The translations under genes and the position numbers were made by a program. Positions 4,599-63,392 of a DNA stretch of 64,000 nt are shown here, piece after piece. The notes beneath the pieces are model-generated. The model had not been told where the DNA came from, made no database searches, and worked only from the letters and a program-made list of their open reading frames with translations. How positions within the stretch are numbered: position 1 is the first letter of the stretch; each line of letters opens with the position of its first letter. The DNA is from Branchiostoma floridae (Eukaryota; Chordata; Leptocardii; Amphioxiformes; Branchiostomatidae). The stretch is from assembly GCF_000003815.2 (NCBI RefSeq), contig NC_049979.1, positions 4,205,038 to 4,269,037 of the forward strand, read 5' to 3'.

Positions 4599-4659
4599 CA
4601 GAAATAGTTACCTGATGAACCTATACTACAGAAATAGTTCATCAGGTAACTATTTCTGC
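4599..4659. repeat. inverted first unit of the 30-bp minisatellite
   Basis: 4599-4620 is an inverted copy of the minisatellite unit, and 4638-4659 is its exact reverse complement (22 nt arms, 17 nt loop). The array therefore begins with a head-to-head junction. Confidence 0.8.
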
Positions 4660-7600
4660 AGTATGGCTTCATCAGGTAACTTTCTGCAGTATGGGTTCAT
4701 CAGGTAACTATTTCTGCAGTATGGGTTCATCAGGTTAACTATTTCTGCAGTATGGGTTCATCAGGTAACTATTTCTGCAGTATGGGTTCATCAGGTAACT
4801 ATTTCTGCAGTATGGGTTCATCAGGTAACTTTCTGCAGGATGGGTTCATCAAGTAACTATTTCTGCAGTATGGGTTCATCAGGTAACTATTTCTGTAGTA
4901 TGGATTCATCAGGTAACTATTTCTGTAGTATGGGTTCATCAGGTAACTATTTCTGCAGTATGGGTTCATCAGGTATTACTATTTCTGCAGTATGGGTTCA
5001 TCAGGTAACTTTCTGCAGTATGGGTTCATCAAGTAACTTTTTCTGCAGTATCGGTTCATCAGGTAACTATTTCTGCAGCAGTATGGGTTCATCAGGTAAC
5101 TATTCCTGCAGTATGGGTTCATCAAGTAACTTTCTGCAGGATGGGTTCATCAGGTTAACTATTTCTGTAGTATGGGTTCATCAAGTAACTATTTCTGTAG
5201 TATAGGTTCATCAGGTAACTATTTCTGTAGTATGGGTTCATCAGGTAACTTTCTGCAGTATGGGTTCATCAGGTAACTATTTTTGCAGTTTGGGTTCATC
5301 AGATAACTATTCCTGCAGTATGGGTTCATCAAGTAACTATTTCTGCAGGATGGGTTCATCAGGTAACTGTTTCAATCTGCAGTATGGGTTCATCAGGTAA
5401 CTTTCTGCAGTATGAGTTCATCAAGTAACTATTTCTGCAGTATGGGTTCATCAGGTAACTATTCCTGTAGTATGGGTTCATCAGGTAACTATTTCTGTAG
5501 TATGGGTTCATCAGGTAACTATTTCTGCAGTATGGGTTCATCAAGTAACTATTTCTGCAGGATGGGTTCATCAGGTAACTGTTTCAATCTGCAGTATGGG
5601 TTCATCAGGTAACTTTCTGCAGTATGAGTTCATCAAGTAACTATTTCTGCAGTATGGGTTCATCAGGTAACTATTCCTGTAGTATGGGTTCATCAGGTAA
5701 CTATTTCTGTAGTATGGGTTCATCAGGTAACTATTTCTGCAGTATGGGTTCATCAAGTAACTATTTCTGCAGTACGGGTTCATCAGGTATTACTATTTCT
5801 GCAGTATGGGTTCATCAGGTAACTTTCTGCAGTATGGGTTGATCAAGTTACTATTTCTGCAGTATGGGTTCATCAGGTAACTATTTCTGCAGTATGGGTT
5901 CATCAGGTTAACTATTTCTGCAGTATGGGTTCATCAGATAACTATTTCTGTAGTATAGGTTCATCAGGTAACTATTTCTGCAGTATGGGTTCATCAGGTA
6001 ACTATTTCTGCAGGATGGGTTCATCAGGTAACTATTTCTGCAGGATGGGTTCATCAGGTAACTTTATGCAGTATGAGTTCATCAGGTAACTATTTCTGCA
6101 GTATGGGTTAATCAGGTATTACTAACTATTTCTGCAGTATTTGTTCATCAGGTAACTATTTCTGCAGTTTGGGTTCATCAGATAACTATTTCTGTAGCAG
6201 TATGGGTTCATCAGGTAACTTTCTGCAGTATTGGTTCATCAGGTAACTATTTCTGCAGTATTGGTTCATCAGGTAACTATTTCTGCAGTTTGGGTTCATC
6301 AGGTAACTTTCTGCAGTATGGGTTCATCAGGTAACTATTTCTGCAGTATGGATTCATCAGGTAACTTTCTGCAGTATGGGTTCATCAGGTAACTATTTCT
6401 GCAGTTTGGGTTCATCAGGTAACTTTCTGCAGTATGGGTTCATCAGGTAACTATTCCTGCAGTATGGGTTCATCAGGTTAACTATTTCTGCAGTATGGGT
6501 TCATCAGGTAACTTTCTGCAGTATGGGTTAATCAGGTAACTATTTCTGCAGTATGGGTTCATCAAGTAACTATTTCTGCAGGATGGGTTCATCAGGTAAC
6601 TTTCTGCAGTATGGGTTCATCAGGTAACTTTCTGTAGTATGGGTTCATCAAGTAACTATTTCTGCAGTATTGGTTCATCAGGTAACTTTATGTAGTATGG
6701 GTTCATCAAGTAACTATTTCTGAAGGATGGGTTCATCAGGTAACTGTTTCTGCAGTATGGGTTCATCAGGTAACTTTCTGCAGTATGGGTTCATCAGGTT
6801 AACTATTTCTGCAGTATGGGTTCATCAGGTAACTATTTCTGCAGTATGGGTTCATCAGGTAACTTTCTGCAGTATGTGTTCATCAGGTAACTATTTCTGC
6901 AGTTTGGGTTCATTAGGTAACTTTCTGCAGTATGGGTTCATCAGGTAACTATTTCTGCAGTATGGGTTCATCAGGTTACTTTCTGCAGCATGAGTTCATT
7001 AGGTATTACTAACTATTTCTGCAGTATTGGTTCATCAGGTAACTGTTTCTGCAGTATGGGTTCATCAGGTAACTATTTCTGTAGTATGGGTTCATCAAGT
7101 AACTATTTCTGCAGTATGGGTTCATCAGGTAACTATTCCTGTAGTATGGGTTCATCAGGTAACTATTTCTGTAGTATGGGTTCATCAGGTAACTTTCTGC
7201 AGTATGAGTTCATCAAGTTACTATTTTTGCAGTATGGGTTCATCAGGTAACTATTTCTGTAGTATGGGTTCATCAGGTAACTATTTCTGCAGTATGGGTT
7301 CATCAAGTAACTATTTCTGCAGTACGGGTTCATCAGGTATTATTATTTCTGCAGTATGGGTTCATCAGGTAACTTTCTGCAGTATGGGTTTATCAAGTAA
7401 CTATTTCTGCAGTATGGGTTCATCAGGTAACTATTTCTGCAGTATGGGTTCATCAGGTTAACTATTTCTGTAGTATAGGTTCATCAGGTAACTATTTCTG
7501 TAGTATGGGTTCATCAGGTAACTATTTCTGCAGTATGGGTTCATCAGGTAACTATTTCTGCAGGATGGGTTCATCAGGTAACTTTATGCAGTATGGGTTC

Positions 7601-8264
7601 ATCAGGTAACTATTTCTGCAGTATGGGTTCATCAGGTTAACTATTTCTGCAGTATGGGTTCATCAAGTAACTATTTTTGCAGTATGGGTTCATCAGGTAA
7701 CTATTTCTGCAGTATGGGTTCATCAGGTTAACTATTTCTGCAGTATGGGTTCATCAGATAACTATTTCTGCAGTATGGGTTCATCAGGTAACTTTCTGCA
7801 GTATGGGTTTATCAAGTAACTATTTCTGCAGTATGGGTTCATCGGGTAACTATTTCTGCAGTATGGGTTCATCAGGTAACTATTTCTGCAGTATGGGTTT
7901 ATTAGGTAACTTTCTGCAGTATGGGTTCATCAGGTAACTATTTCTGCAGTATGGGTTCAGACTATTTCTGCAGTTTGGGTTCATCAGGTAACTTTCTGCA
8001 GTATGGGTTCATCAGGTAACGTTTTCTGCAGCATGGGTTCATCAGGTAACTTTCTGCAGTATGGGTTCATCAGGTAACTATTTCTGCAGCAAGGGTTCAT
8101 CAGGTTAACTATTTCTGCAGTATGGGTTCATCAGGTAACTTTCTGCAGTATGAGTTCATTGGGTAACTATTTCTGCAGTATGGGTTCATCAGGTTAACTA
8201 TTTCTGCAGTATGGGTTCATCAAGTATTACTAACTATTTCTGCAGTATGGGTTCATCAGGTAAC
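4637..8264. repeat. minisatellite, 30-bp unit, about 125 copies
   Basis: Tandem array of a unit read as GGTTCATCAGGTAACT followed by ATTTCTGCAGTATG (30 bp, contains a PstI site CTGCAG). Length variants are mixed in: 28 bp (AT lost from ACTATTTC), 31 bp (GGTTAACT) and 32-36 bp (GGTATTACT, GGTATTACTAACT). Because 30 is divisible by three, short ORFs of MGSSGNYFCS repeats appear, but the 28- and 31-bp variants break the frame over and over, which argues against coding. The block at 5571-5783 repeats 5359-5571 almost exactly, a higher-order duplication of about 212 bp. Confidence 0.95.
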
Positions 8265-9734
8265 TCGCGCATGTGTTTCTCTCTCACGCATACCTGTTTC
8301 TCACTCTCGCAGCTGATCTCTCTCGCGCACCTGTTTCTCTCTCGCACGCACCTGTTTCTCTCTCGCACGCATTGTTTCTCTCTTGCATATCTGTTTCTCT
8401 CTCGCGCATCTGTTTCTCTCTCGCGCATCTGTTTCTCTCTCGCGCATCTGTTTCTCTCGCGTGCATTTGTTTCTCTCTCGCGCACCTGTCTCTCGCGCAC
8501 CTGTCTCTCGCGCACCTGTTTCTCTCGCGCACTTGTTTCTCTCTCGCACACCTGTTTCTCTCGCGCTCATCTGTTTCTCTCTCACGCACATGTTTCTCTC
8601 TCTTGCGCATCTGTTTCTCTCTTGCGCATCTGTTTCCGTCTCAGCATCTGTTTCTCTCTCGCGCACCTGTTTCTCTTGCGCATCTGTTTCTCTCTCGCCC
8701 ACATCTGTTTCTCTCTTGCATATCTGTTTCTCTCTTGCGCATATGTTTCTCTCTTCCGCATCTGTTTCTCTTGCGCATCTGTTTCTCATTGCGCATCTGT
8801 TTCTCTCTCGCGCGCATCTGTTTCTCTCTGGCGCATCTGTTTCTGTTGCGCATCTGTTTCTCTCTTGCGCATCTGTTTCTCTCTCGTGCTTCTGTTTCTC
8901 TCTTGCGCATCTGTTTCTCTCTCGCGCATCTGTTTCTCTCTTGCGCATCTGTCTCTTTTGCACATCTGTTTCTCTCTTGCGCATCTGTTTCTCTCTCGTG
9001 CTTCTGTTTCTATCTTGCGCATCTGTTTCTCTGTTGCGCATCTGTTTCTCTCTTGCGCATCTGTTTCTGTCTCGCGCATCTGTTTCTCTCTTGCGTATCT
9101 GTTTCTCTGTTGCGCACCTGTTTCTCTCTTGCGCATCTGTTTCTCTCTCGCGTGCAGCTGTTTAGCTTGCGCATCTGTTTTTCTCTCGTGCTTCTGTTTT
9201 TCCCTTGCACATCTGTTTCTCTCTCGCACGGACCTTTCTCTCTCTGGTGTATCTGTTTCTCTCTTGCCCATCTGCTTCTCTCTTGCGCATCTGTTTCTCT
9301 CTTGCGCATCTGTTTCTCTCTTGCGCATCTGTTTCTCTCTCGCGCATCTGTTTCTCTCTCGCACATCTGTTTCTCTCTCGCGCATCTGTTTCTCTCTCGC
9401 GCATCTGTTTCTCTCTTGCGCATTTGTTTCTCTCTTGCGCATCTGTTTCTCTCTTGTGCATCTGTTTCTCTCGCGTGCAGCTGTTTAGCTTGCGCATCTG
9501 TTTCTCTCTCGTACTTCTTTTTCTCTCTGGCGCATCTGTTTCTCTCTTGCGCATCTGTTTCTCTCTTGCGCATCTGTTTCTCTCTTGTGCATCTGTTTCT
9601 CTCTCGCGTATCTGTTTCTCTTTTGTGCATCTGTTTCTCTCTTGTGCATCTGTTTCTCTGGCGCATCTGTTTCTCTCTTGCGCATCTGTTTCTCTCTTGC
9701 GCACCTGTTTCTCTCTCGCACGCATCTGTTTCTC
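8265..9734. repeat. minisatellite, 19-bp unit, about 77 copies
   Basis: Array of TCTCTCTTGCGCATCTGTT (19 bp) with C/T changes (TCTCGCGCATCTG, TTGTGCATCTG). It starts within a base or two of the end of the 30-bp array. Since 19 is not divisible by three, each frame cycles through all three phases every 57 bp, and the unit lacks stops in several frames, giving long open frames (up to 500 codons) on both strands. I treat these as artefacts of composition: no domain, no splice context. Confidence 0.95.
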
Positions 9735-16702: not shown

Positions 16703-16710
16703 GCTGTTGA
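16703..16710. repeat. left 8-bp target site duplication GCTGTTGA
   Basis: GCTGTTGA at 16703-16710 is repeated at 27491-27498, directly outside both ends of the foldback element. Confidence 0.9.
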
Positions 16711-16965
16711 GGTAACGGGGCCATTTAACTCTCACGAACATGCAAATGAGTTACTTCTCATGAACATGCAAATTGTATTCATAGCAGTACGTCATGACTC
16801 CTGTGCAACGTACATGCACATGCGTTGCACACAGCGTCGCACACATGCACATGCGTTGTACACGTCATGAATGTATCACCTAACAGCCTGCTTCAAAAGT
16901 CTAGTAGGTCCCTCATCAATCCCTTCTGTCTTCATCTTCTGTTTCCAGTCAAATTGACTATTCTA
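16711..16965 (+). repeat. left terminal inverted repeat, unique outer domain
   Basis: Matches the reverse complement of 27236-27490 with only a handful of differences. Contains two octamer words ATGCAAAT (near 16742 and 16767) and two copies of ACATGCACATGCGTTG. Confidence 0.92.
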
Positions 16966-17590
16966 AACCTCTTATGTCACTTTGGCCATTCTGACCATTC
17001 TCCACCACTCTGGTCATTCTGACCATTTTCTACCACTTTGACCATTCTGACCATTTTCCATCACTTTGGCCATCCTAACCATTCTCCATCACTCAGGTCA
17101 TTCTGACCATTCTCTACCACTTTGGCCATTCTGACCATTCTCCACCACTCTGGCCCTTCCCTACCACTCTGGTCATTCTGACCATTCTCCATCACTTTGG
17201 CCATTCTGACCATTCTCCACCACTCTGGCCATTCTGACCATTCTCCACCACTCAGGTCATTCTGTCCATTCTCTATCCCTCTGGCCACTCCGACCATTCT
17301 CCACCACTCTGGTCATTCTGACCATTCTCTGTCACTCTGTTCATTCAGACCATTCACTACAACTCTGGCCATCCTGACCATTTTCTCTATCACTCTGTCC
17401 ATTCTATCAATTCTCTATCACTCTGGCTATTCTGACCATTCTCCATCACTCTGGCTATTCTGACCATTCTCTGTCACTCTTGTCATTCTGACCATTCTCT
17501 GTCACTCTGGCCATTCTCCATCACTCTGGCCATTCTGACCATTCTCCTTCACTCTGGCCATTCTGACCATTCTCTGTCACTCTGAGCATA
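16966..17590 (-). repeat. 28-bp minisatellite, left arm (about 22 units)
   Basis: Unit (minus strand) GGTCAGAATGGCCAGAGTGG then TGGAGAAT, 28 bp, with C/T changes giving GACCTGAGTG and GCCAAAGTGG forms. Here it is read in the opposite orientation to the right arm. Confidence 0.92.
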
Positions 17591-18150
17591 TAGTATGCCA
17601 GGTTGCATTCACTACATTTATAACTGACACGTACTGGCAAAAGAACCTTTCCAAAATCTATCTGGTTGCTGGAGTAACTTTTGTATAGCGTACCTGATTA
17701 CCTTTGTGTCTAACTTTCATTGACATACTAACTTCTACTTTTTGGAGAATGTATATTCCATGGTACAAGGAATTATCTCCACAGAGTCCAAATCATTGGC
17801 TGCAATATACTGCATGTTAACAAAATGAAAAATGTGTAAGTGTAACCTGTGAACTTTCGGTATTGGAAAATTGGTCTGCACCATTTTGCAGCTCTGTAAT
17901 GAACTTTAAAGTGTGATACTGGGTATAATGCAAGGAGATAAGTAGTAAAGTAATCAACATTGCCTTCATGAGCATTCTTATCAATTCAGAAAATAAACTA
18001 GCTACCTTTGGTTACCAAAAATAGCTTATATTATAACAAGTCTAAGTGAGCCAATTTCCATCATCATCATTAATTAAGCCAAGTTTACAAGTGACAGAAA
18101 ATTTGGTATGGGCTGTTGCAAAGTATAAAGTTACCTTTCCTAGAGATATA
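17591..18150. other. unique centre of the foldback element, no gene seen
   Basis: About 560 bp without a long ORF, RNA gene or repeat I can recognise. Confidence 0.6.
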
Positions 18151-19372
18151 ACAGAATGACCAGAGTGATAGAGAATTAAATTATGGTCAGAATGCTCAGA
18201 ATAACACAGAATGCTCAGAGTGGTGGAGAATGGTCAGAATGGTCAAAGTGGTAGAAAATGGTCAGAATGACCTGAGTGATGGAGAATGTTCAGAATGACC
18301 TGAGTGGTGGAGAATGGTCAGAATGGCCAGAGTGGTGGAGAATGGTCAGAATGACCTGAGTGATGGAGAATGGTCAGAATGGCCAAAGTGGTGGAGAATG
18401 GTCAGAATGGCCAGAGTGGTGGAGAATGGTCAGAATGACCTGAGTGATGGAGAATGGTCAGAATGGCCAGAGTGAAGGACAATGGTCAGAATGGCCAGAG
18501 TGATGGAGAATGGTCAGAATGGCCAGAGTGATGGAGAATGGTCAGAATGACAAGAGTGGTGGAGAATGGTCAGAATGGCCAAAGTGATGGAGAATGTTCA
18601 GAATGGCCAGAGTGATGGAGAATGGTCAGAATGGCCAGAGTGGTGGAGAATGGTCAGAATGACCTGAGTGATGGAGAATGGTCAGAATGGCCAAAGTGGT
18701 GGAGAATGGTCAGAATGGCCAGAGTGGTGGAGAATGGTCAGAATGACCTGAGTGATGGAGAATGGTCAGAATGGCCAGAGTGAAGGACAATGGTCAGAAT
18801 GGCCAGAGTGATGGAGAATGATCAGGATGGCCAGAGTGGTGGAGAATGGTCAGAATGACCTGAGTGATGGAGAATGGTCAGAATGGCCAGAGTGAAGGAC
18901 AATGGTCAGAATGGCCAGAGTGATGGAGAATGGTCAGAATGGCCAAAGTGGTGGAGAATGGTCAGAATGGCCAAAGTGGTAGAGAATGGTCAGAATGGCC
19001 AAAGTGATTGAGAATGGTCAGAATGGCCAGAGTGGTGGAGAATGGTCAGAATGGCCAAAGTGGTAGAGAATGTTCAGAATGACCTGAGTGATGGAGAATG
19101 GTCAGAATGGCAAGAGTGATTGAGAATGGTCAGAATGGCCAGAGTGGTGGAGAATGGTCAGAATGGCCAAAGTGGTAGAGAATGGTCAGAATGACTAGAG
19201 TGATGGAAAATAGTCAGAATGGCCAAAGTGGTGGAGAATGGTCAGAATGGCCAGAGTGGTGGAGAATGGTCAGAATCGTCAGTGTGGTGGAGAATGGTCA
19301 GAATGGCCAAAGTGGTGGAGAATGGTCAGAATGGCCAAAGTGATGGAGAATGGTCAGAATGACCAGAGTGGT
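18151..19372 (+). repeat. 28-bp minisatellite, right arm, part 1 (about 43 units)
   Basis: Same unit as 16966-17590, opposite orientation. A block of several units recurs (compare 18300-18480 with 18640-18790 and 18840-18910), so it grew by multi-unit duplication. Ends in AGTGGT, the first copy of the LINE target duplication. Confidence 0.92.
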
Positions 19373-19377
19373 ATCGT

Positions 19378-19391
19378 CCAAGATGGCGGCT
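19378..19391 (+). promoter_or_regulatory. YY1-like site at the LINE 5' end
   Basis: CCAAGATGGCGGC lies within about 10 bp of the element start. It fits the YY1 consensus (AANATGGCGGC). Human L1 has a YY1 site at a similar place, where it sets the transcription start; the same role here is inferred. Confidence 0.5.
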
Positions 19392-19814
19392 GCTTCTTTT
19401 TCGGGTCCAACTTTTTCTCCGACAAAGTCGGTTGCTTGATGCACTAAAAGGCCGTTGGAGGACCCAGATCTTCAGTAGACGTGGACAAGGAACTGAAGAA
19501 TACCGGGGAACACGTCTGACCCTAGAGAGAAGACCGGGTGCTGAGAAACCAGACCGAAGCGACAGACGCACGGCGCCCCCCTCCCCACCGGCGTGACGCA
19601 GTAACATCAGTGGGCCCTGAAAAACGGGCCCATGCCGGTGGGTAGCCAGTACTTGGTTCTGAAGTTCTATCAAGGGCTGCCAACAAGCAGTGCACGTTGA
19701 TTGCTAGAGAATTTGTATACTGGCGAGCATTTTTTACTTTACAGGACGTTCCGGGGCCACCTTAGGGGGCCTTGACTGAAAGGGGCTAGCAACCGACAGA
19801 CGTAAACACCACGT

Positions 19815-20306
19815 ATGGAGGGTGAGCCGACAGGAGAGGAGGAGAGCACACATGCAGCCATGGGAGAAGAGGAGCCGGAGGGCTCGGGGATGTGGCTCAG
19901 AGGGATTGAAGACATCTCCTTTGAAGATGACGCAGAGACACCCAGAGAGATCCTGGAGCTGGTGAGGAACCACATAGAAGGCCTTGACAGGAAAGCAGCC
20001 AAAAGGAAGGTACTTGCAGCCAGTAGCTACAACGAACACATACTGAACCACACAAGAGAGGCCTTGTTTGCAATAGCCAGACAACAGAGGAGGGATTGCC
20101 CAAAGGGGCAGCCAAAGAAAAGAACATACAGAGCTAACACTGAGCCAGTCGCTAACAGGTTAGCAGAAGATTGTTGTGCCTTATTCCAGTTTATAGAAGG
20201 TGGGAGGAACCTGGCAGAGATAAAGAAAATGTTCCCCACGGGTACCCAGAACAACACATGGCAGAGTCCAGCTATCACCAGGAGTAGAAGGCTGAACCTA
20301 TCCTAG
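19815..20306 (+). CDS. LINE ORF1, N-terminal part
   Basis: 164 codons from ATG to TAG. Acidic start (MEGEPTGEEESTHAAMGEEE), then a basic middle (KAAKRKV; RRDCPKGQPKKRTYR) and a short helical end (LAEDCCALFQFIEGGRNL). No domain recognised. The next reading frame is open from 20288, overlapping the last 19 bases, so ORF1 was probably one protein of about 830 residues: either this copy has a frameshift near 20288 or the element uses frameshifting. Confidence 0.7.
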   Translation: MEGEPTGEEESTHAAMGEEEPEGSGMWLRGIEDISFEDDAETPREILELVRNHIEGLDRKAAKRKVLAASSYNEHILNHTREALFAIARQQRRDCPKGQPKKRTYRANTEPVANRLAEDCCALFQFIEGGRNLAEIKKMFPTGTQNNTWQSPAITRSRRLNLS

Positions 20307-22303
20307 AAGAGGTGGAGGATGAAGATGTGGTAGCAAAAATACTGGCGGAAAATGCAAGTCTGAGAGAGATGCTGAAAACAGAAATGAGAGAAGTGAATGA
20401 GAAGCTTACGAGCATGAGCAATAGGGTGAAACACCACGAAGAAGCGAGGGTTGATGTAACCGAACACTGTGACAGGCAACTCAAAAGTATACACGACGAG
20501 TTAGCAACCAACAAGGGATCTCAACTTGTATTATCAGAAGATATAGAAAGTATGAAAGGGAAGCTGAAGAAACTAGAAGCAACTCAAGTAAGAATACAAA
20601 CCACAGTTTCAACATGCAACAACAAGATCCTTTCCCTAGAGACAGAAATCCACACTCTGCAAGGCTCTGCCAAGAAGTCTGACACAGAAAAAGAGGCTAA
20701 GTTTGGAAATATTACCAAATATGTACAGAGCCTGGCCTTCTCGCTGGAAGAAAGGATCAGAGAGCAAGAGTACGGTCTGTCTACAACACACGGGAGAATT
20801 AAAGAGATGGAGAGGTTGGACTACCTAGAACCTAAGAGCTCCACAACAAGCTGCCTCACATGTGAAACAACAGGACAGATAAAGAGTCAGAAAATGGGGA
20901 GTACCACTGAAAGTAACCAGTCAAGGAGAAACAGGAGTCGTGAAAAATCTGCAGAAGAAGCATTGAACGAAGCTCAGGATGAAGATGTAATAACAACCTA
21001 CCTACAGGAAGCACGAGACAATCCACAAATCCCAGACAACACAGACAGAAACCAGGTCAACCTGCGACACGAACAAAAACTGGTACACGCAGAAACAGGC
21101 CTGCCTGGAAAAATAAGCAGAAGTGGAAGCACAGAAGAGAACTGTAACATAAACCAGACTGACGAGGGCAGTATTATCAACCTGGACCCCAGCCCAATCA
21201 GGAACGGGAGAGAAAAGAGAGATGAAATAGGACAGACGACAACACACAGGGTTCCTGAACAGTTACCAGTACAAAACAAAGAAAACACACAGGGGCACCG
21301 TACTAGCATCACCAGTGATGAGCTGAATAAGAGTAATCAGGGGCAAGAGACAGTTGTCAACAAAAGAAGCGAAGGGGACGAAAACAAGGCTGAACAGCCG
21401 GTGAAACAAGGGGCCATAGACACTTACCTAAAGCAAGTTAGGCAGGCCCAACAGAGAGAAGACAGCTGTAATGCCTCTGAGTTGGGATGCAGGGTACAAG
21501 AGAGCCAAGAGAAAGCTCTACCAGAGAAAAGGGACAATATCACAACTCAGGCAGTAGGAGGGAATCACGATAGTACCAGCAACAGTGTAATACAGCTAGA
21601 TGCAACAAGTCCAATCAACCCAGTAATGCGTTCAAAGACAAAAAGACAGTGGTATGGGGCAAATCAACATTCAACCCCAAGGAGAGAAAATGGACTAACA
21701 GAGAAACTGGTCAGCAATGGAGAAAATGTCCTACAAGCACATCAACAAGAAGGAACATCAAATTCAAAAACCAGCTTCATCGTGCAAAGTGGAGCAGCGA
21801 ACCATCAGCCCAAGTCATATAAAGAAGCACTGCTCCACACACAGAAAAGTTCACACCGGAAGAGAAAGTCCAGTGACAGAACAAAGGGTCCTGGCCATTA
21901 CAGGTATGATAAACACATTGCCACACATGAGAAGGAGAGAAATGCCAAGCCGAGAGACGAGAGTACAGACCTTTCAGACTTTGTTAGTGCAGCAAGAACC
22001 AGACTGAAGAGGAGAAGATTTTTCCTAGGCTACATGAAGAAAACAGAACCTAGGAAACTACAGGATATGATATACAAATATGCACAAAGAAGGGAAGTAC
22101 ATCTATCCTTTGTGAGGGTTATGACAAGCAGACAGAAGGACATGGCCTTTGCAAGGATAAATGTCCTTGAGCACCAAGCTGACATGGTAGTGAAAGACAA
22201 GTTCTGGCCAGAAGGCATTAAGTGCAGACTATGGTTATCAGAAAGGAGGTACAAGAACAAGGGAGGTGACCAGGAGCCGAGTAGCGAAAAGCCCTGTCCG
22301 TAA
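20288..22303 (+). CDS. LINE ORF1, coiled-coil and C-terminal part
   Basis: Open frame after TAG at 20285-20287. It has no ATG at its head (a GTG lies at 20312), which supports its being the continuation of the frame ending at 20306. Residues 1-170 are coiled-coil-like (LREMLKTEMREVNEKL; heptad Leu/Ile pattern), then a long polar, Gln/Asn/Lys-rich linker, then a compact C-terminal part with FLGYMKKTEPRKLQDMI and FWPEGIKCRLW, which is typical of ORF1 proteins of related invertebrate LINEs (RRM-like fold inferred). Role: RNA binding in the retrotransposition particle. Confidence 0.8.
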   Translation, partial: KAEPILEEVEDEDVVAKILAENASLREMLKTEMREVNEKLTSMSNRVKHHEEARVDVTEHCDRQLKSIHDELATNKGSQLVLSEDIESMKGKLKKLEATQVRIQTTVSTCNNKILSLETEIHTLQGSAKKSDTEKEAKFGNITKYVQSLAFSLEERIREQEYGLSTTHGRIKEMERLDYLEPKSSTTSCLTCETTGQIKSQKMGSTTESNQSRRNRSREKSAEEALNEAQDEDVITTYLQEARDNPQIPDNTDRNQVNLRHEQKLVHAETGLPGKISRSGSTEENCNINQTDEGSIINLDPSPIRNGREKRDEIGQTTTHRVPEQLPVQNKENTQGHRTSITSDELNKSNQGQETVVNKRSEGDENKAEQPVKQGAIDTYLKQVRQAQQREDSCNASELGCRVQESQEKALPEKRDNITTQAVGGNHDSTSNSVIQLDATSPINPVMRSKTKRQWYGANQHSTPRRENGLTEKLVSNGENVLQAHQQEGTSNSKTSFIVQSGAANHQPKSYKEALLHTQKSSHRKRKSSDRTKGPGHYRYDKHIATHEKERNAKPRDESTDLSDFVSAARTRLKRRRFFLGYMKKTEPRKLQDMIYKYAQRREVHLSFVRVMTSRQKDMAFARINVLEHQADMVVKDKFWPEGIKCRLWLSERRYKNKGGDQEPSSEKPCP

Positions 22304-22360
22304 TCAGAATGCCATGGCCCAGACCTTGGGTACATACCCTGCACCATACCAACAAGTAAC

Positions 22361-25300
22361 ATGACCAGAAGTATACAAAGTCAACTGTCAGTTGCCTGCT
22401 ACAATACTAGGGGACTAGTGACAGCAATACCGTTCATCAGGAAACACTTAGCACATATAGACATAGTAGCAATTACAGAGCACTGGCTCTTTGAAGAATC
22501 ACTTCCAGAATTGGACAGAGTTTTAAACAGCCATAGGGGCTGGGGCAGGGCAGACAGGAGACTGCAAGATCATGAAAGAGGGCACTGGAGGAGAGGTCAG
22601 GGTGGAGTGGCACTGTTATGGAAAGAATCAATAGATTATGCAGTTTGCAAACTGAATGATGGCAACGACAGAATCATAGGAGTGCGGATAAGGCTTTGTG
22701 ACGGCCAAAAACTCTTTCTCTTTGCTGTCTACATGCCAAATGGAGGAATGCCAATTGAAGAATACAGAGAACAGCTGGAGGTGTTAAGGGAGTTATATAG
22801 AAAGTATGAGAATGACGGGGAAGTTATGATTATTGGAGACTTTAATGCAGACCTTGGTGATCAAGGAGGGCCAAGGGGCAAAGGTCAAATGTCAAAACTG
22901 GGGAAAGAACTAGCAGACATCATGGGTGAACTAGGCTTGCTATCTCTCAACCTAAGCAACTTGGGCACAGGACCACTTCACACTTTCCAGGCCAATGGTG
23001 ACAAGAATCTGTCAACTATAGACCATATTGTCATGCCCCACACATTAGCAGCAGAAGCAACCTCATGCAGAGTCTTAGAGAACAACGGAGACAACTTATC
23101 AGACCACAACCCAGTCATAGCAACTTTCAACAACAAACCATCTGAGTGGAAAGAAGGGCAGTGTGAAGCAAAACTAGACTGGGAGAAGGTTGAAAGACAA
23201 GTGATTGAAGATACTTTTGGAAAAAGTGTGGAAAGGAAACTAGACGCAACTAAAAGCCCCAGTGAAGTGACAATAGCTGCCATTGAAGAGGAAGTCGGTG
23301 TGTTAACTGAAGTGCTGAGAAGTGCAGCAGTAGAGACAATACCAGTGAAGAGAACAAAAAAGCACCAGAAGCCTTATTGGTCATCAGACCTACAAGAAAC
23401 ACACCAGGAAGAGATAGAGGCCTGGCTCCTGTGGAAGGCAGCTGGAAAACCAAGGGAGAAGAACAACCAGCTGTTTAAGAATTACAAAGACAGTAAAAGC
23501 CGCTACCGAGCAGTTCTAAGACAGGCAAAACTCCTGCATGAAGAACAAGAGAATGAGAAACTAGCAGAGATAGCAGGAACGGACGACAGGGGTTTTTGGA
23601 AGAAAATAAGACAAAGAAAAGGAAAAACAGACAAACCACAAGCAGTGAAAGTGGGAGACCAACTCCTGACAGACCCAAGAGAGGTAAGAGAGGCATGGGC
23701 CACCCATTTGGAAATGCTTGGAAATGAGCAGAAAGAGGAAAGTGCACTTTATGATGAAGTACATAAGGAAGCAGTCATAGAGGAAGTAAGGAAAATGGAG
23801 AGGGAGAGTTATAATAACACTGAAGACATTCTAGAAGAACCATTCCTCCTGTCAGAAGTGGCCACTGTTTGCAGGCAGCTGAAGTGTGGTAAAGCTGGAG
23901 GGAATGATGGCCTGACATATGAACACATGAAGTATGGTGGCAAAGCACTGTGGAGCAGAATGACAGCACTGTTCAATGCAATGAGGGAACTAGAATACAT
24001 TCCAATGGAATTTAAGAAGGGAATTAAGATCCCCTTACTAAAACAAGGCAAAACTAACAAAGCAGATTTCAACTCGCACAGAGGCATCACCCTCCTAAAT
24101 GTGATGATGAAGATTTGGGAGAAAGTACTTTACAATAGATGGAAACCATGGTTACTGTCCAAGGGCCTACCACATGAGCTTCAAAACGGTGGTCAGGTGG
24201 GATGTAACAACATTACCACAGCCTACATTGTGCGAGAAGTACTGACTCACTACCAGGAAAGAGGCAGTTTAGTTTACGGCTGTTTCCTCGACACGACTAA
24301 AGCATACGATACAGTGTGGATACCAGGGCTGTTGTACAAGATGTTTAAAGTGGGTGTGAATGGCAAAATGTGGAGGTTGATCAAGCTGATGCACACTGAG
24401 AACTGCTATTCAGTCAAGTTGAACGGGGAGAAGTCAAGAGAGTTCATAACCACACGCGGAGTTAACCAAGGAGGCGTGTTATCTCTCACATGCTACCTCC
24501 TCTCAACTAACGATGTGCATGAGATATTACAAGCCCAGGGTGGAGGGGCATCGGTGGGCGGTCTGAACTGTTGCTCACCGGCACTTGCAGACGACATATG
24601 CCTGCTTGCAGGCTCAAGATCAGCACTGATGAAACTTATAGACACTATGTATATTTATGGTACAAAATGGAGGTTTCAATTTGCACCAGAAAAGAGTAAA
24701 TGCGTAGTGTTTGGTCAGAAGTCAGGAGGAAGGCCTACAGGAAGTTCAGTTGGGGACTGGTGGATGGGGAACACAGCTATCCCGGAGGTTGCTACAGTTA
24801 CACATGTTGGGGTACAACATTCAGCAAACCTAACATCAGCAGCAGCGACAGAGAGTGCCACAAAGAAAGGCAAAGGAAAGACCTGTGCAATTCTTGCAAC
24901 GGGATTGGAAGGCAGGAAACCTAATCCACTTGTCACAAGAAAACTTTACTACACTATAGTGATCCCCTCCATGCTACACGGGTGTGAGCTCTGGCAGCCA
25001 TCCAATACTGATATGCAAAAACTTGAGCAGTGCCACAGATTTGCCGCTAAGAAAATGCAAGATATGCATTTCCAGACGGAGACAACAGCAACCCTCGCAG
25101 CACTGGGGATGCCATCCCTTAGAGCAATTATTGACAAATACAAGCTGAGGCTCTTTGGCAGACTAACACAACTCCCCAGCAATGTGCTGGCAAAGAAAAT
25201 ATTCTTGTATAGACTGTACTCATTCTTGCTGAGAAGAGAAAGAGGGATCAGCTCCAAAGGATTTATCAGTGATTGCTTCACAATTGCGCAAGAATATGGA

Positions 25301-25858
25301 CTGAGTGAGTATCTTGAGCAGTTCGGGGTAACCCTGGAGTTCCCAGCAAACCGGTGGAAGCACATTGTGAAAGCAGCTGTGGGGGAAAAAGAGGAAGGAA
25401 AGTGGAACGACAAAATAAGTGGAAGTACAACAAGGTTCCATAAGACACACACAACAATGTTGCAACCACATAAGTTATGGATGCTAGCTAGGAAGAAACC
25501 TGCCTACAGAAGTGACCTACAAAAGTTGATACACCTCAGTACTGCACCGAGAACACAAAAAGCTTGCCCAGCATGTGACAACCCCACAGATGACCTAGTA
25601 AAGCACATGTTGACAGAATGCAGAACATTCCAGACGGTGAGGGAAGAAGTGACTGACCACCTTACTGACTTCCTTGGAATCAGAGTAGCAGTGGAAGTGC
25701 ACCAGCAGGGAGACGAGAGACTAACTGAAGTTCTCCTTGGTGCGCACATAGTAGAAGAGAACATTGAGACAGAACACTGGGAGGAGTTTATCCTGCTTGT
25801 AGCAAGAAAGCTAAGACCACTAGCAATAATGGCTCTCAAGCATATAACATGGAAATGA
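22361..25858 (+). CDS. LINE ORF2: endonuclease-reverse transcriptase, 1165 aa
   Basis: Intact ORF, ATG to TGA. N-terminal APE-type endonuclease: CYNTRGL, ITEHWLFEESLP, VYMPNGG, IIGDFNADLGD, STIDHIVMP, LSDHNPVIATF, so all the usual catalytic positions are present. Reverse transcriptase about residues 480-800: IPLLKQGKTNKADF and RGITLLNVMMKIWEK (motifs 0-1), YGCFLDTTKAYDTVW (A), TRGVNQGGVLSLTCYLLS (B), LADDICLLAGS (C). The C-terminus has CPACDNPTDDLVKHMLTEC, a zinc-binding motif. It nicks target DNA and copies the element RNA by target-primed reverse transcription. Starts 57 bp after the ORF1 stop. No broken motif seen; could be active. Confidence 0.95.
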   Translation: MTRSIQSQLSVACYNTRGLVTAIPFIRKHLAHIDIVAITEHWLFEESLPELDRVLNSHRGWGRADRRLQDHERGHWRRGQGGVALLWKESIDYAVCKLNDGNDRIIGVRIRLCDGQKLFLFAVYMPNGGMPIEEYREQLEVLRELYRKYENDGEVMIIGDFNADLGDQGGPRGKGQMSKLGKELADIMGELGLLSLNLSNLGTGPLHTFQANGDKNLSTIDHIVMPHTLAAEATSCRVLENNGDNLSDHNPVIATFNNKPSEWKEGQCEAKLDWEKVERQVIEDTFGKSVERKLDATKSPSEVTIAAIEEEVGVLTEVLRSAAVETIPVKRTKKHQKPYWSSDLQETHQEEIEAWLLWKAAGKPREKNNQLFKNYKDSKSRYRAVLRQAKLLHEEQENEKLAEIAGTDDRGFWKKIRQRKGKTDKPQAVKVGDQLLTDPREVREAWATHLEMLGNEQKEESALYDEVHKEAVIEEVRKMERESYNNTEDILEEPFLLSEVATVCRQLKCGKAGGNDGLTYEHMKYGGKALWSRMTALFNAMRELEYIPMEFKKGIKIPLLKQGKTNKADFNSHRGITLLNVMMKIWEKVLYNRWKPWLLSKGLPHELQNGGQVGCNNITTAYIVREVLTHYQERGSLVYGCFLDTTKAYDTVWIPGLLYKMFKVGVNGKMWRLIKLMHTENCYSVKLNGEKSREFITTRGVNQGGVLSLTCYLLSTNDVHEILQAQGGGASVGGLNCCSPALADDICLLAGSRSALMKLIDTMYIYGTKWRFQFAPEKSKCVVFGQKSGGRPTGSSVGDWWMGNTAIPEVATVTHVGVQHSANLTSAAATESATKKGKGKTCAILATGLEGRKPNPLVTRKLYYTIVIPSMLHGCELWQPSNTDMQKLEQCHRFAAKKMQDMHFQTETTATLAALGMPSLRAIIDKYKLRLFGRLTQLPSNVLAKKIFLYRLYSFLLRRERGISSKGFISDCFTIAQEYGLSEYLEQFGVTLEFPANRWKHIVKAAVGEKEEGKWNDKISGSTTRFHKTHTTMLQPHKLWMLARKKPAYRSDLQKLIHLSTAPRTQKACPACDNPTDDLVKHMLTECRTFQTVREEVTDHLTDFLGIRVAVEVHQQGDERLTEVLLGAHIVEENIETEHWEEFILLVARKLRPLAIMALKHITWK

Positions 25859-26400
25859 GTCAGGTCTTTGTTCCTATCCACTTCGATGGCCAATCAGTGA
25901 CAACAGAGTAATTGGTGTAGAAACTGTGCAACTGATATACATACTGTGCAACTGATAACTGACTGGTTTAAGTTAAGTCAAAGTGTTTACATTATGTACA
26001 GGACCGTATAACGGAAGCATAGGTATGAGTCATGTAAAGGTGTATGTGTAAAGTGTTGCTCATAGAAACTGCATGATGAAAGTTCAAGACCCATGTGAGT
26101 CAAACTGAAGTATCATTATACAAGTTTGCGTTCAGAGACTGTATTTTGGAAGTCTAAGACTAAGAGATGTAGATCATAACAAGTTGGTTTCTTTTTACCA
26201 TGTACACAGTCATATGTATGACAATAGACAGAACTTTTTAAAGTCAAGCGGGACAAGGCGTAAATGAGTGTTCGTAGAATCTGTTTGTACCGTATTATTA
26301 TGTTGTAAGCTGTCACCTAGGAAACATATTTTAATATTTGTAAATATTCCATTTTTATGCTCTCCCAAGACGGAGGAATAAAGTATGAAGAAGAAGAAGA

Positions 26401-27235
26401 AGTGGTGGAGAATGGTCAGAATGGTCAAAGTGGTAGAAAATGGTCAGAATGACCTGAGTGATGGAGAATGGTCAGAATGGCCAGAGTGGTGGAGAATGGT
26501 CAGAATGGCCAAAGTGGTAGAGAATGGTCAGAATGACTAGAGTGATGGAAAATAGTCAGAATGGCCAAAGTGATGGAGAATGGTCAGAATGGCCAGAGTG
26601 GTGGAGAAGGGCCAGAGTGGTGGAGAAGGGCCAGAGTGGTGGAGAATGGTCATAATGGCCAAAGTGATGGAGAATGGTCAGAATGACCAGAGTGATGGAG
26701 AAGGGCCAAAGTGGTGGAGAATGGTCAGAATGGCCAAAGTGGTAGAGAATGGTCAGAATGACCTGAGTGATGGAGAATGGTCAGAAGGGCCAAAGTGATG
26801 GAGAATGGTCAGAATGGCCAAAGTGGTAGAGAATGGTCAGAATGACCTGAGTGATGGAGAATGGTCAGAATGGCCAAAGTGGTAGAGAATGGTCAGAATG
26901 GCCAGAGTGGTGGAGAATGGTCAGAATGGCCAAAGTGATGGAGAATGGTCAGAATGACCAGAGTGGTAGGGAAGGGCCAGAGTGGTGGAGAATGGTCAGA
27001 ATGGCCAAAGTGGTAGAGAATGGTCAGAATGACCTGAGTGGTATAGAATGGTCAGAATGGCCAGAGTGGTGGAGAATGGTCAGAATGGCCAAAGTGATGG
27101 AGAATGGTCAGAATGACCAGAGTGGTAGGGAAGGGCCAGAGTGGTGGAGAATGGTCAGAATGGTCAAAGTGGTAGAAAATGGTCAGAATGACCAGAGTGG
27201 TGGAGAATGGTCAGAATGGCCAAAGTGACATAGAA
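26401..27235 (+). repeat. 28-bp minisatellite, right arm, part 2 (about 30 units)
   Basis: Continues the array interrupted by the LINE. Includes shortened units (GGCCAGAGTGGTGGAGAA). Confidence 0.92.
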
Positions 27236-27490
27236 GGTTTAGAATAATTTGACTGGAAACAGAAGATGAAGACAGAAGGGATTGATGAGGGACCTACTAG
27301 ACTTTTGAAGCAGGCTGTTAGGTGATACATTCATGACGTGTACAACGCATGTGCATGTGTGCGACGCTGTGTGCAACGCATGTGCATGTACGTTGCACAG
27401 GAGTCATGACGTACTGCTATGAATACAATTTGCATGTTCATGAGAAGTAACTCATTTGCATGTTCGTGAGAGTTAAATGGCCCCGTTACC
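27236..27490 (-). repeat. right terminal inverted repeat, unique outer domain
   Basis: Near-identical reverse complement of 16711-16965. A few bases differ at the inner border only. Confidence 0.92.
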
Positions 27491-27509
27491 GCTGTTGAGC
27501 CCAGCGGGG

Positions 27510-27753
27510 AGCACGTCACCGGAACGTACTGCGCCTGCGCGAAAAGTATAGACATGCTAAACCCCCGGTTTACTAAAGGGCCGCATTTAAGAAAGTACGT
27601 GCGTATATAAGGGTAAAACTCCGTGTACGTTTTACACGAAACCATGTCTCTAACATATACTGTGCAACAAGCGGGATTTTAATGCAACGTTGACCAAACC
27701 AAGCCCCAAACTACCAGGGTTTGCGCAGGCGCAGTACGTTCCGGTGACGTGCT
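27510..27753. mobile_element. 244-bp MITE with 9-bp target duplication
   Basis: Termini AGCACGTCACCGGAACG and its reverse complement CGTTCCGGTGACGTGCT; the match extends through TACTGCGCCTGCGC. CCAGCGGGG at 27501-27509 is repeated at 27754-27762. No ORF. It lies 19 bp from the end of the foldback element, so two DNA transposons hit the same short stretch. Confidence 0.88.
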
Positions 27754-27778
27754 CCAGCGGGGAATTCTCTCCCGGCAG

Positions 27779-33857: not shown

Positions 33858-36800
33858 CTAAAAACGTAGAACCAAAACTCCCGTCCGCACACTTGCCCAT
33901 CTAACAGATTGGCACCACTCAGCCAAGAAACTTTCAGAACCAAGTCGCACAAACTCCATCTTGAGTTTAAACCTAAGAGCCTCCTTGATTAGAGACACCA
34001 GCTCAATGTGAGATACGAAATTATTGTCAAAGAGAGCCTGACACCTGGACCACCAAATCTTAGACCGAGCGACGGCCAAAATGTAGGTGCAGACATCTCT
34101 CTTACACTTCTTCAGGGTAGACGACATAACACCATAGAGAGCGACCGCGCGAGAAACACGAAAACTAGAGACCACCCATCGCCTAATGAATCCTTCGACC
34201 CAAGTCCAGGTCAGGAGCACCTCGCCACAAGACCAGATGGCATGGGTAACGGTCTCCGTAGCTCTACAGTTTCTCCTCGGACAAAGAGGGGAAGGAGTTC
34301 TGTGCCAAATCGAACAAGTCAAGTAGTTGGTTTTGAGAGCCCCATGTGCGACCTTCCAGGAAAGCTCCTTTAGGTTATTCTCAAGGAGAGTGTTATGCAC
34401 CGTTGAAAAAACAAGTGACCAATCAACACCCCGCTCTAAAAAACAAGCGGAAGGGGTATGAGAACGAGCTAAAATGGCAGCTTTGTACAAAGACTGCACG
34501 GTGCATATCCTGTCCCAAGTCTTCGAAGCAGAAGCATTAACAAATTCCAAGGTGAGCTTCCGCATCAAAGAATAGTGAGGTGGAGCCTCAGGAGAGTGGG
34601 GGGAACTGTTAGACCACGATGATGGTTCAAAACGACGGGCAAAAAAACCCAGCCAATATTTTGCCAACTGGACCCATGGAAGATCCGGCCGGTCAAGAAT
34701 ATTGGTAAACGGCCGACAATAAAAACAATTGGCCTTCACTCCAAAATCAATGAGATCCCATCCACCTTTGTCTAAAGGTAGCATAACTGTCTGTCTAGAG
34801 ACCATTTCTGCACGAGAACTCCAGAAAAACTTAAAGACGGCTCTCGTAATGTCCTTGACGACTGACTCGGGAGGAGAAAATACAGGAGCAATATACCACA
34901 AAGTAGATAAAGCAAGGTTATTAACGACGACAACCTTGCCAGCGAAGGATAAAGAGAAGCTGTCCCACCTTCGCAGAACCGCTTCAAATTTAGCTTGCCT
35001 CTCCCTCCAGTTGACTAAAGGCATATTAACACTTCCAAAAGTACCTCCCAATAAACGTATGGATACAGATGTCCATTTAAAATTCTTCGGACAATCGAGT
35101 CTTTTCCTCCAACTACCTAGCCAGAGACCCATACATTTGTCAAGATTTAAAAGAGACCCGGAACCTCTGTTATACATGTCAATAACAGCAAAGAGCCGGC
35201 GGATCGACTCATCGGTTGTAACAATAGCCGAGTTATCGTCCGCATACTGCGAGATCTTAACTTCACGGCCACCAGGCAACCTGAGGCCGTGAATCGCAGC
35301 GTCGGCCCTTACTGTAGCGGCAAATGGCTCCAAAGAAATTGCGTACAGCAGGGGTGACATAGGGCACCCCTGCCGAACACCTCTTGAGAGAGAAAAAGAA
35401 GATGATAGCGACCCATTGACGGAAACAGCACTGGTAATGTTGTGGTACAATATAGCAACCCATTTGCGAAAAACCGGGCCAAAACCCATCTTCGCAAGAG
35501 TCAAGTGAAGAAAATCAATATTCACTCTATCAAAGGCCTTGGCCTGATCCAGAGAAATGATCGCACAGTCAAAGTTATTCATATTAACATATGTAACGAT
35601 ATCTCTCATCAAAATTAGGTTACATTGTATCGACCGGCCTGGTATACCGCATGTCTGGTCAGGACTGATGACCGAGGCGGCAACCATCTTAAGCCTATTG
35701 TTAAGGACCTTTGCAAGAATCTTATAATCGCAATTTAACAAAGAGATGGGGCGACGGTTCTTTGGGTCCAGAGGGTCCCCTTTTTTTGGAAGGAGAGTAA
35801 TAACACCAAAACTCTGGCTCTGAGAGAGCTCGCCAGAAGAAAAAACTTCCTCAAAAACTGAGAGGAGATCCCCGGCAATGACGTCCCAGAAAGCGACATA
35901 AAATTCCTTCGGGAGACCGTCACTGCCAGGGGACTTATTATTCTCCATACTGCGCAATGCAGCCCAAAGCTCATCCAATGAAAGAGGACCTTCTAATGAA
36001 GAGACTTCATCAGGATCCAAAGACCCTTCTAAATTGTTACAAAGGTTATTCGCCTCACACTTATCAATAGGCTCAGCACTAAAAAGGTCTTCATAAAATA
36101 GCTTAAAAACATCTAAAATCTCCTCGTCATCTTGGACAACACGTCCAGTAGAATCTCTGACCGAAGAAATGCGTCGCTGCCTACTTCGGGAAGAGGCCTG
36201 GCTTACAAAATACGAGGTACATTTTTCCCCCTCGACAAATTGCTTGACTCTGGACCGAACAAAAGCACCGCGAGCCTCCTCAGCGGACAACTCGGACAAG
36301 GAAGACTTAGTACATTCATACCTACGCAAGATGTCCGCCGAGGAGGCCCCGTCGTTCATCTTGTTGGTGAGATCGACAAGATCATTATTCAAGGTAAACA
36401 TGGACTCCCGTCTCTCCCTAGCCAGTTCACAAGAAATTCTGATCAGGAGAGAGCGAGTTCTAGCCTTTACATCGTCCCACCAGGCTCGCAAAGAAGGAAA
36501 ACCTGGTTTCAAAGTCTTCCAATTGTTAAAAGCGAGTTTAAAATCATTTAAAACTTTGTCTCTTTTTAAAATCGAGACATTACATTTCCACAAGCCAGGC
36601 TTCTTCTTCACATCCGGTAAAATTGACAAGGACACACAGTCATGGTCTGTAAAATATGCGGGTAAAAAACAGTAGTTTGAAACGACGAGGCATTTAGACG
36701 AATAAAATCGGTCCAGCCGACAGGCAATACCTTTGGTCGGCTGTCTCCAAGTGAAGACCTTTTTAGAAGGATTCTCATGTCTCCAAGAGTCATGCACATT

Positions 36801-37352
36801 AAAATCGGCGCAAATGTCTTTTAAAACGGTGGAACCGCCACTACCATGAGCCGGGTTCCCGCCCCTCTTATCAATATCAACATCTTCAACGCAGTTAAAA
36901 TCACCGCACAAAATAAGGGGCTCAGCCCCCGACAGAAACTTATACAAATTTTTAAAAAATCCAGTACGCTCCGCAGGAATGTTAGGAGCATACATGTTAC
37001 AAACTTTGAAATTACGCGCACCATCGGACAAGACGACACAGACAACACGCCCACTGTCGTCACAAGACTTTTTAACCACATCAAAATTGAAAGATGGAGA
37101 GAGTAAAATACCCACACCTCTAGATTGGGAGGAGCCCAATGCCCAAAACGCTTGGCCTCCCCATTCCTTCTCCCAGAGCACCGCTTCAGATGTTGACGAA
37201 ACATGGCACTCTTGGAGGCAAACAACGTCAAATTTATGTTGACGGCAAAAGCCGAAAACCTGCCTCCTCTTCTGCGGACTACGGAGCCCACAGACATTGA
37301 GTGTAGCAATAAGAACCATGAGGCTACATAGAGAAGGAATGTCAAACAACAT
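33858..37352 (-). CDS. Tx1-like LINE ORF2: endonuclease-reverse transcriptase, 1164 aa
   Basis: Intact ORF starting 14 nt after the ORF1 stop. Endonuclease: LNVCGLRSPQKRR, VVCLQECHV, NMYAPNIP, LCGDFNCVEDVDIDKRGG, CRLDRFY, FTDHDCVSLSI. Reverse transcriptase: ITLLPKKGDP with RRPISLLNCDYKILAK, AIISLDQAKAFDRVN (A), SRGVRQGCPMSPLLYAISLE (B), QYADDNSAIV (C). The PKKGD...RPISLLNCDYKI signature is that of the Tx1/L1 group. The C-terminal Cys/His segment (CPRRNCRATETVTHAIWSC) is a zinc motif. All catalytic residues visible are kept; the copy could be active. The GTG/ATG choice is clear: ATG at 37352; a second ATG at residue 12 is also possible. Confidence 0.95.
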   Translation of the reverse strand: MLFDIPSLCSLMVLIATLNVCGLRSPQKRRQVFGFCRQHKFDVVCLQECHVSSTSEAVLWEKEWGGQAFWALGSSQSRGVGILLSPSFNFDVVKKSCDDSGRVVCVVLSDGARNFKVCNMYAPNIPAERTGFFKNLYKFLSGAEPLILCGDFNCVEDVDIDKRGGNPAHGSGGSTVLKDICADFNVHDSWRHENPSKKVFTWRQPTKGIACRLDRFYSSKCLVVSNYCFLPAYFTDHDCVSLSILPDVKKKPGLWKCNVSILKRDKVLNDFKLAFNNWKTLKPGFPSLRAWWDDVKARTRSLLIRISCELARERRESMFTLNNDLVDLTNKMNDGASSADILRRYECTKSSLSELSAEEARGAFVRSRVKQFVEGEKCTSYFVSQASSRSRQRRISSVRDSTGRVVQDDEEILDVFKLFYEDLFSAEPIDKCEANNLCNNLEGSLDPDEVSSLEGPLSLDELWAALRSMENNKSPGSDGLPKEFYVAFWDVIAGDLLSVFEEVFSSGELSQSQSFGVITLLPKKGDPLDPKNRRPISLLNCDYKILAKVLNNRLKMVAASVISPDQTCGIPGRSIQCNLILMRDIVTYVNMNNFDCAIISLDQAKAFDRVNIDFLHLTLAKMGFGPVFRKWVAILYHNITSAVSVNGSLSSSFSLSRGVRQGCPMSPLLYAISLEPFAATVRADAAIHGLRLPGGREVKISQYADDNSAIVTTDESIRRLFAVIDMYNRGSGSLLNLDKCMGLWLGSWRKRLDCPKNFKWTSVSIRLLGGTFGSVNMPLVNWRERQAKFEAVLRRWDSFSLSFAGKVVVVNNLALSTLWYIAPVFSPPESVVKDITRAVFKFFWSSRAEMVSRQTVMLPLDKGGWDLIDFGVKANCFYCRPFTNILDRPDLPWVQLAKYWLGFFARRFEPSSWSNSSPHSPEAPPHYSLMRKLTLEFVNASASKTWDRICTVQSLYKAAILARSHTPSACFLERGVDWSLVFSTVHNTLLENNLKELSWKVAHGALKTNYLTCSIWHRTPSPLCPRRNCRATETVTHAIWSCGEVLLTWTWVEGFIRRWVVSSFRVSRAVALYGVMSSTLKKCKRDVCTYILAVARSKIWWSRCQALFDNNFVSHIELVSLIKEALRFKLKMEFVRLGSESFLAEWCQSVRWASVRTGVLVLRF

Positions 37353-37366
37353 CGGAATGTGAGGAA

Positions 37367-45700: not shown

Positions 45701-45829
45701 GCGATACACTTTAATAGACGCACTGATGCACTTCTACGCTTCATACTGAAGAGTCCACAACATCCCATTGGTAGAATCAAAGATCACTGGATTCGTGTGG
45801 AATTCCAATTAAGAGGTTCTCCACAGTGA
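42764..45829 (+). pseudogene. Helitron replicase N-terminal part with cysteine-protease-like domain, cut at the HUH motif
   Basis: Open frame of 1021 codons. Residues 1-210: a C76/OTU-like cysteine protease fold, with GDNRGKQCTANALMAV (candidate nucleophile C26) and YDSHARSP (D156-S-H158); such deubiquitinase-like domains are known in Helitron proteins. About 340-490: Lys/Glu-rich repeats of 22-24 residues (SYKAKQANETPEQKAERLAK). About 545-590: Cys-rich zinc motif (YYCSICRQLLFHDQ; LCSKCSICL). About 800-1021: Helitron-like N domain (CFPQLYPYGKNGF; GPPTWFVTVSANDLNWPELF; DPVMCAIHFNRR). It ends RVEFQLRGSPQ and a stop, exactly where replicases continue with the HUH (His-x-His) site. The Rep catalytic site and the helicase are missing, so the element cannot replicate itself, although the remaining frame is undamaged. 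Confidence 0.88.
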
Positions 45830-46102: not shown

Positions 46103-46144
46103 CTTCCAAATGCGCCCCGGCCAGCTTTTTTTAAAAGCTTTCTT

Positions 46145-63195: not shown

Positions 63196-63392
63196 GTGTC
63201 ACAAAATTTACTAATCTTTACACAAGAAAAAATTTTCCACTACAAAGTCAGGCCTTGTGTCATTCAACGATATAAGCAACTTCATCTTTATTAACGATTT
63301 CATATCTTACATACATCGCATCCCATCATGATGTATTCCTCAACTGACCACCACTCAGAAAATCCTTTTAGAAGGCGAAAGTGGCAGCTTTT

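Follow-up and report, generated by a model that had tools for sequence, protein, structure and literature searches.

Foldback transposons such as TU of sea urchins and FB of Drosophila have arms that are built of short tandem repeats, and the target-site duplication (TSD) is 8 bp for TU and 7 bp for Galileo of Drosophila. Here we describe an element of this architecture in a 64,000-nucleotide stretch of the lancelet Branchiostoma floridae genome (assembly GCF_000003815.2, contig NC_049979.1, positions 4,205,038 to 4,269,037 of the forward strand; the whole stretch is referred to as the window). The element occupies positions 16711–27490 of the window, and we interpret it, with a probability of about 0.85, as a foldback-type, non-autonomous DNA transposon of the cut-and-paste class. 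It resembles TU in architecture and in the length of the TSD only.

Tetris, a foldback transposon of Drosophila virilis, offers several parallels. According to the account in PMC4079207, its terminal inverted repeats (TIRs) have three parts, namely an outer flanking domain, tandem repeats of variable number and an inner part; its middle has no open reading frames (ORFs); three complete copies and no autonomous copy are reported there; its TSD is 8–10 bp, compared with 8 bp in the lancelet element; and its outer end is common to a miniature inverted-repeat transposable element (MITE), DAIBAM. Tetris differs in its unit of ~220 bp, as against 28 bp here, and in its insect host, the comparison being one of descriptions and not of sequences. 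Tm1, a Mutator/foldback family of root-knot nematodes, is described in PMC3169594 with a composite TIR, short tandem repeats and unequal numbers of units in the arms, and some of its copies are truncated at one end or are without TSDs. However, Tm1 has mostly a 9-bp TSD, a ~14-bp unit and asymmetric tip motifs, and one Tm1 copy is known to have a Phantom-like transposase (PMC3169594). Galileo, a member of the P superfamily, shares very long and internally repetitive TIRs with the lancelet element, but its transposase is known, and its repeats were shown to hold additional binding sites for the transposase (THAP) (PMC3688188). Our literature searches yielded no account of a foldback element in lancelets, nor of this family. 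The element represents a new family whose architecture is known from Tetris, Galileo, Tm1 and TU; the family may nevertheless be catalogued in Repbase, as Repbase sequences were not compared; the name LanceletTn-2 is in use in PMC5802833.

The preliminary description of this locus, made from the letters alone, had claimed an exact duplication on both sides of the element, and we confirmed the 8-bp sequence GCTGTTGA at 16703–16710 and 27491–27498 (features are on the plus strand unless stated otherwise; duplications carry no strand). Immediately inside lie two TIRs of 245 bp, the left at 16711–16955 and the right, on the minus strand, at 27246–27490. They are inverted copies of each other with 245/245 identity, so that the near-identity first noted over the outer ~250 bp is perfect over this length. 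The left TIR begins with GGTAACGGGGCC; its first 11 bp, the length used in the 11-bp rule of Repbase (PMC4455052), are GGTAACGGGGC. It contains the octamer ATGCAAAT twice and has a core that is rich in palindromes. Beyond the TIRs, homology continues through a junction (16956–16976 on the left, alignable with the right end except for a 4-bp indel, GACT) into arms made of a 28-bp minisatellite, which stands in opposite orientation behind the two ends, as had been described. The left arm (16977–17589, C-rich strand) has ~22 units. It is followed by a centre of 551 bp (17590–18140; 35% G+C) and by a right arm that is split in two pieces of ~42 and 27–30 units, an inner part at 18141–19372 and an outer part, with its junction, at 26407–27245. 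Between the two pieces lies a long interspersed nuclear element (LINE) at 19373–26400. The preliminary description had taken a centre of 560 bp for the sole interior content and had missed the LINE. Without the LINE, the native element is 10,780 − 7,034 = 3,746 bp.

We looked across the window for pairs of inverted repeats (≥14 bp, within 13 kb) accompanied by terminal direct repeats of 7–10 bp, with 0–3 bp of trimming. The matches consisted of the foldback element and a neighbor at 27510–27753 only. Random pairs of window positions shared an 8-mer in 16 of 200,000 draws.

Next, the host genome (513,431,437 bases in 431 contigs) was searched with the TIR. From this search and from checks of the individual loci, we observed the long TIR in four elements, the window copy on contig C1 and copies on C3, C9 and C11 (C and L numbers are our own handles for contigs and loci). 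The C3 copy (L031) is 5,955 bp long and has the same TIR, minisatellite arms and centre (85%). In the C9 copy (L032; 2,924 bp) the arms abut without a centre, and the C11 copy (L033) consists of one end and 12 units, the remainder being a run of N. Three further matches are partial or diverged: a 1.1-kb copy with two short ends on C13 (L028), 88 bp of the end only on C15 (L034) and a 51-bp TIR fragment on C12 (L078). The last was the only one read among ten lower rows of the search that were given no locus. The inner 182 bp of the TIR gave eight match rows at E ≤ 0.001, all within the four long-TIR elements (7/7 candidates scored). We also considered an inverted centre in C3 as a sign of arm recombination and rejected it, as C3 read in reverse gives short arm, centre and long arm, the same order as in the window copy. 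An ORF with C2H2 zinc fingers lies directly downstream of the isolated 88-bp end on C15 and shares its strand (L034, ~3364–4384).

Six copies provided ten flanks of up to 1 kb, and a comparison among these gave no cross-similarity at E 1e-4 save between the two C9 flanks, which share one repeat. As the flanks are unrelated among the copies, spread of the copies by segmental duplication is unlikely. The window element belongs to a small dispersed family.

These data also bear on the possibility that the locus is an inverted duplication of a minisatellite, produced by break repair or by template switching during replication, with the 8-bp repeat arising by chance. Minisatellite arms are prone to rearrangement, and the irregular ends of the C9 and C3 copies would suit such an origin. 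However, copies at sites with unrelated flanks have this TIR and these arms, the C3 copy has the centre as well, and chance sharing of an 8-mer is as rare as stated above. The copies on C3, C9 and C11 exclude that the TIR is confined to an inverted duplication of one locus. We regard this origin as very improbable and as largely refuted already. The element shows the features of foldback-type DNA transposons as a structural class: long inverted arms with tandem repeats, a flanking TSD (in the window copy) and dispersed copies at unrelated sites. The relatives at unrelated flanks support the initial proposal of a complete, apparently recent foldback-type element without its own transposase; we consider the element complete and probably recent.

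The LINE in the right arm, a non-long-terminal-repeat retrotransposon, makes up ~7.0 kb of the 10.8-kb interval. It ends in a GAA-rich tail and is flanked by a 6-bp duplication, AGTGGT, read from the sequence at 19367–19372 and 26401–26406. The 20 nt of a minisatellite unit before the LINE and the 8 nt after its duplication add up to one 28-nt unit, and the phase of the minisatellite is kept. Two upstream ORFs of 163 and 663 amino acids (aa), in two frames at 19815–22303, had no Pfam match at E 0.001. ORF2 (22361–25858; 1165 aa) carries an endonuclease (PF03372; E 1.1e-12) and a reverse transcriptase (PF00078; E 1.2e-19), and gave three pattern matches and no relatives in a viral collection.

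As these long ORFs are located between the TIRs, one could propose an autonomous composite, with the 7-kb coding region belonging to the transposon. However, the region encodes an endonuclease–reverse transcriptase and has its own short duplication and GAA-rich tail. A 461-base stretch near the 3′ end of the LINE gave 16 match rows in the genome, including the window itself; seven of the others cover at least 261 of the 461 bases at 94–97% identity (four span the whole query), and eight more are weaker or shorter. None of the 16 rows is at the C3, C9, C11, C13 or C15 copies, and the window LINE is not present in the readable parts of these copies. As its tail is found away from the sibling copies, we concluded that the LINE inserted independently and later into the foldback element. 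The composite, to which we assign a negligible probability, is refuted jointly by the distribution of the LINE tail and by the fact that the region is missing in C3, in C9 and in what can be read of C11. One 97% copy of the LINE tail, at C10:9903788, is 5.6 kb from a match to the outer 63 bp of the TIR at C10:9909384. An arm of the C3 copy holds a reverse-transcriptase element (L031, ~4378–6637; Pfam E 2.5e-19) that has no similarity to the window LINE. Both copies with a centre, the window copy and C3, carry a retroelement in one arm, and the two retroelements differ.

We then analyzed the remaining parts of the element. Among the places scored, the C3 sibling alone has a second complete copy of the 551-bp centre (85%), and a stretch of ~80 bp from inside the centre matches the other 38 (74–86%). 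The centre is therefore partly built of a dispersed repeat. The TIR as a DNA hairpin was no more stable than its shuffles (z −0.62). Derivation of the minisatellite from the TIR or its junctions was tried and rejected, because 160, 24 and 70 of 300 shuffled sequences matched at least as well. There was no Rfam match in the window at gathering scores, no blastn match of the TIR to phage records and no match of an 18-bp TIR pattern in the viral collection. The neighbor identified in the scan (27510–27753) is a MITE-like element of 244 bp with a 34-bp TIR (97%) that starts 20 bp past the end of the foldback element; a 9-bp duplication, CCAGCGGGG, stands at 27501–27509 and 27754–27762.

Several observations weigh against a transposon of this type. 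The family is very small. All 42 listed transposase domain matches (Mutator-like element (MULE), KDZ and P-type) lie at least 124 kb from each of 55 end-like positions in the genome, and no autonomous copy was present among 15 matches to the terminal pattern that we read (3 kb around 5 of them and 0.5 kb around 10). Among the four two-ended copies (C1, C3, C9 and C13), a flush TSD is found in one, namely the window copy. The left end of C3 is 97.0% like its own right end and 97.9% like the C11 end, and the two C9 ends are 83.9% alike, which is below the likeness of the left C9 end to the C1 ends (87.9%).

The preliminary description had looked to other copies with 8-bp duplications, and none of the readable siblings has a flush one. 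In the C9 copy, six terminal bases are lost at the left end. The same locus holds a second version of the left flank (83% over 421 columns), which continues through the bases standing at the position of the terminus; this direct repeat (L032, 995–1000 and 4438–4820; 83%; 3.5 kb apart) marks where the left terminus was lost. In C3, the last base of the right end is changed or missing, and the same 9-mer is present 3 bp outside the left end and 11 bp outside the right end. As 127 of 20,000 random pairs of 25-mers also share a 9-mer, this displaced repeat is only suggestive. The C13 flanks share no 6-mer, and the second end of C11 falls within the run of N.

The ends of the window copy are identical, unlike those of its siblings. 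They have no mismatch in 245 columns, yet are only 92.6–93.5% like the C3 and C11 ends; in seven columns both differ from all five other ends. In a tree of the ends, the two C1 ends pair with a support of 97/94. Hence, end-to-end identity is a property of the window copy and is not general to the family. Either a recent insertion or the copying of one end onto the other could have made the ends identical, and the data fit both. Recent insertion is the simpler reading, since the identity is seen in the window copy alone.

To which enzyme the ends respond was approached from the transposase domains of the genome, with counts that are lower bounds taken among the matches listed: at least 27 MULE, at least 12 KDZ and at least 3 P-type matches. 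The leading guess, which we offer tentatively and at somewhat less than even odds, is a non-autonomous element of the Mutator superfamily (MULE/Phantom-like), as was proposed for Tetris and shown for Tm1. We favor it because foldback elements have mostly been assigned to Mutator in the accounts available (PMC4079207, PMC3169594). The 8-bp TSD fits the 8–11 bp given for MULEs in PMC6446971, and Tm1 provides a case of foldback TIRs with a Phantom-like transposase (PMC3169594). The genome contains at least 27 MULE domains, the longest of their open frames reaching 1748 aa. However, all of those listed are at least 124 kb away from the 55 end-like positions. The MULE frames of 1384–1748 aa include those at C2:20560291 and C1:6974085; the authors of PMC6446971 state that MULE transposases were not detectable in B. 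floridae.

A non-autonomous element of the KDZ/Zisupton type would agree with the TSD of 8 bp given for Zisupton (PMC12730594) and with the 12 or more KDZ domain matches of the genome, but it appears unlikely. In 11 of 12 KDZ loci (~3.1 kb each) there was no match to the first 16 bp of the TIR at ≤4 substitutions. The sole match (L061; three substitutions, followed by T and G runs) points away from the domain, and the end-like position nearest to the listed KDZ matches is at 1.3 Mb. The GG terminus of the lancelet element is unlike the CA or TA with which hAT elements usually start, and we hold a hAT-type non-autonomous element to be improbable. Its TSD is usually 8 bp (PMC12730594), which would fit. 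For the listed P-type matches, the nearest end-like position is at 1.77 Mb.

The first 16 bp of the TIR, with one mismatch allowed, matched the genome 37 times, compared with 13 for the reversed control. These matches comprised six in known copies (C1 and C3 twice each, C11 and C15), 15 in MITE loci (L009–L023), the 15 that were read, and one at C11:21114263 with a MITE-like spelling. As judged by eye, similarity fades shortly beyond the first 16 bp in 14 of the 15 read, which are chance matches or another repeat (L075–L077 and L080 represent one such repeat); the fifteenth is the C12 fragment L078. An autonomous copy with the same termini, for which the preliminary description had suggested a search, was not found in these searches, which covered terminal matches and MULE, KDZ and P-type domains; one with diverged ends or within an assembly gap may still exist.

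The MITE loci led to a second use of the terminal sequence. In 21 of 24 oriented copies of the outer 63 bp of the TIR, a further repeat is present with its right end; one of the 21, L018, has a different left side. Four copies of this repeat, traced to both ends (L035–L038), are 870–883 bp long with ends GGCCATACCAATTT, and are flanked by TTA/TTA in three cases and by TAA/TAA in one. From this 3-bp TWA duplication, we take it to be a Harbinger-type MITE. Its interior holds a version of the 63-bp module (90–98%) with both ATGCAAAT octamers. One could propose that the foldback ends are those of a transposase lineage with no earlier link to foldback elements, that the module with its two octamers was reused in the foldback family and in the interior of the Harbinger-type MITE, and that the ends within a copy can be homogenized by copying from one folded arm to the other. 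We find this proposal rather doubtful.

On the interpretation that we prefer, a non-autonomous foldback transposon, the plan of the element is terminal domain, tandem-repeat arm, centre, arm and terminal domain. A transposase encoded elsewhere would have recognized the GGTAACGGGGCC ends and mobilized the element in trans, and the ~3.75-kb element would have inserted at GCTGTTGA with duplication of 8 bp. The arms perhaps offer extra transposase sites, by analogy with Galileo, and their length may change through slippage or unequal exchange. The ends of the window copy would be identical through a very recent insertion or through end-to-end copying, and the LINE retrotransposed into the right arm afterwards.

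Elsewhere in the window, a direct repeat of 613 bp with 98.9% identity stands at 46142–46754 and 63388–64000, 17 kb apart; the second copy reaches the window end, and both contain a 34-bp tandem repeat. A 1021-aa ORF at 42764–45829 has Helitron_like_N and DUF6570 domains and an STPR stretch, with a marginal Herpes_teg_N match at its N-terminus (26.2 bits; cut-off 25). On the minus strand, a second LINE at 33858–39256 has a long open ORF1 (zinc knuckle) and an ORF2 (endonuclease and reverse transcriptase). Two abutting minisatellite arrays at 4637–9734 have units of 30 bp (~121 copies) and 19 bp (~78 copies).

PMC4079207 discusses links of Drosophila foldback elements with chromosome inversions, in the case of Galileo, and with satellite DNA, in that of Tetris. 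In the lancelet, one intact copy is readable beside its siblings in one genome, which gives a handle on the growth of the tandem-repeat arms. The copies also bear on why the window copy, unlike its siblings, has identical ends, and on whether minisatellite arms attract retrotransposons, as both centre-bearing copies carry one.

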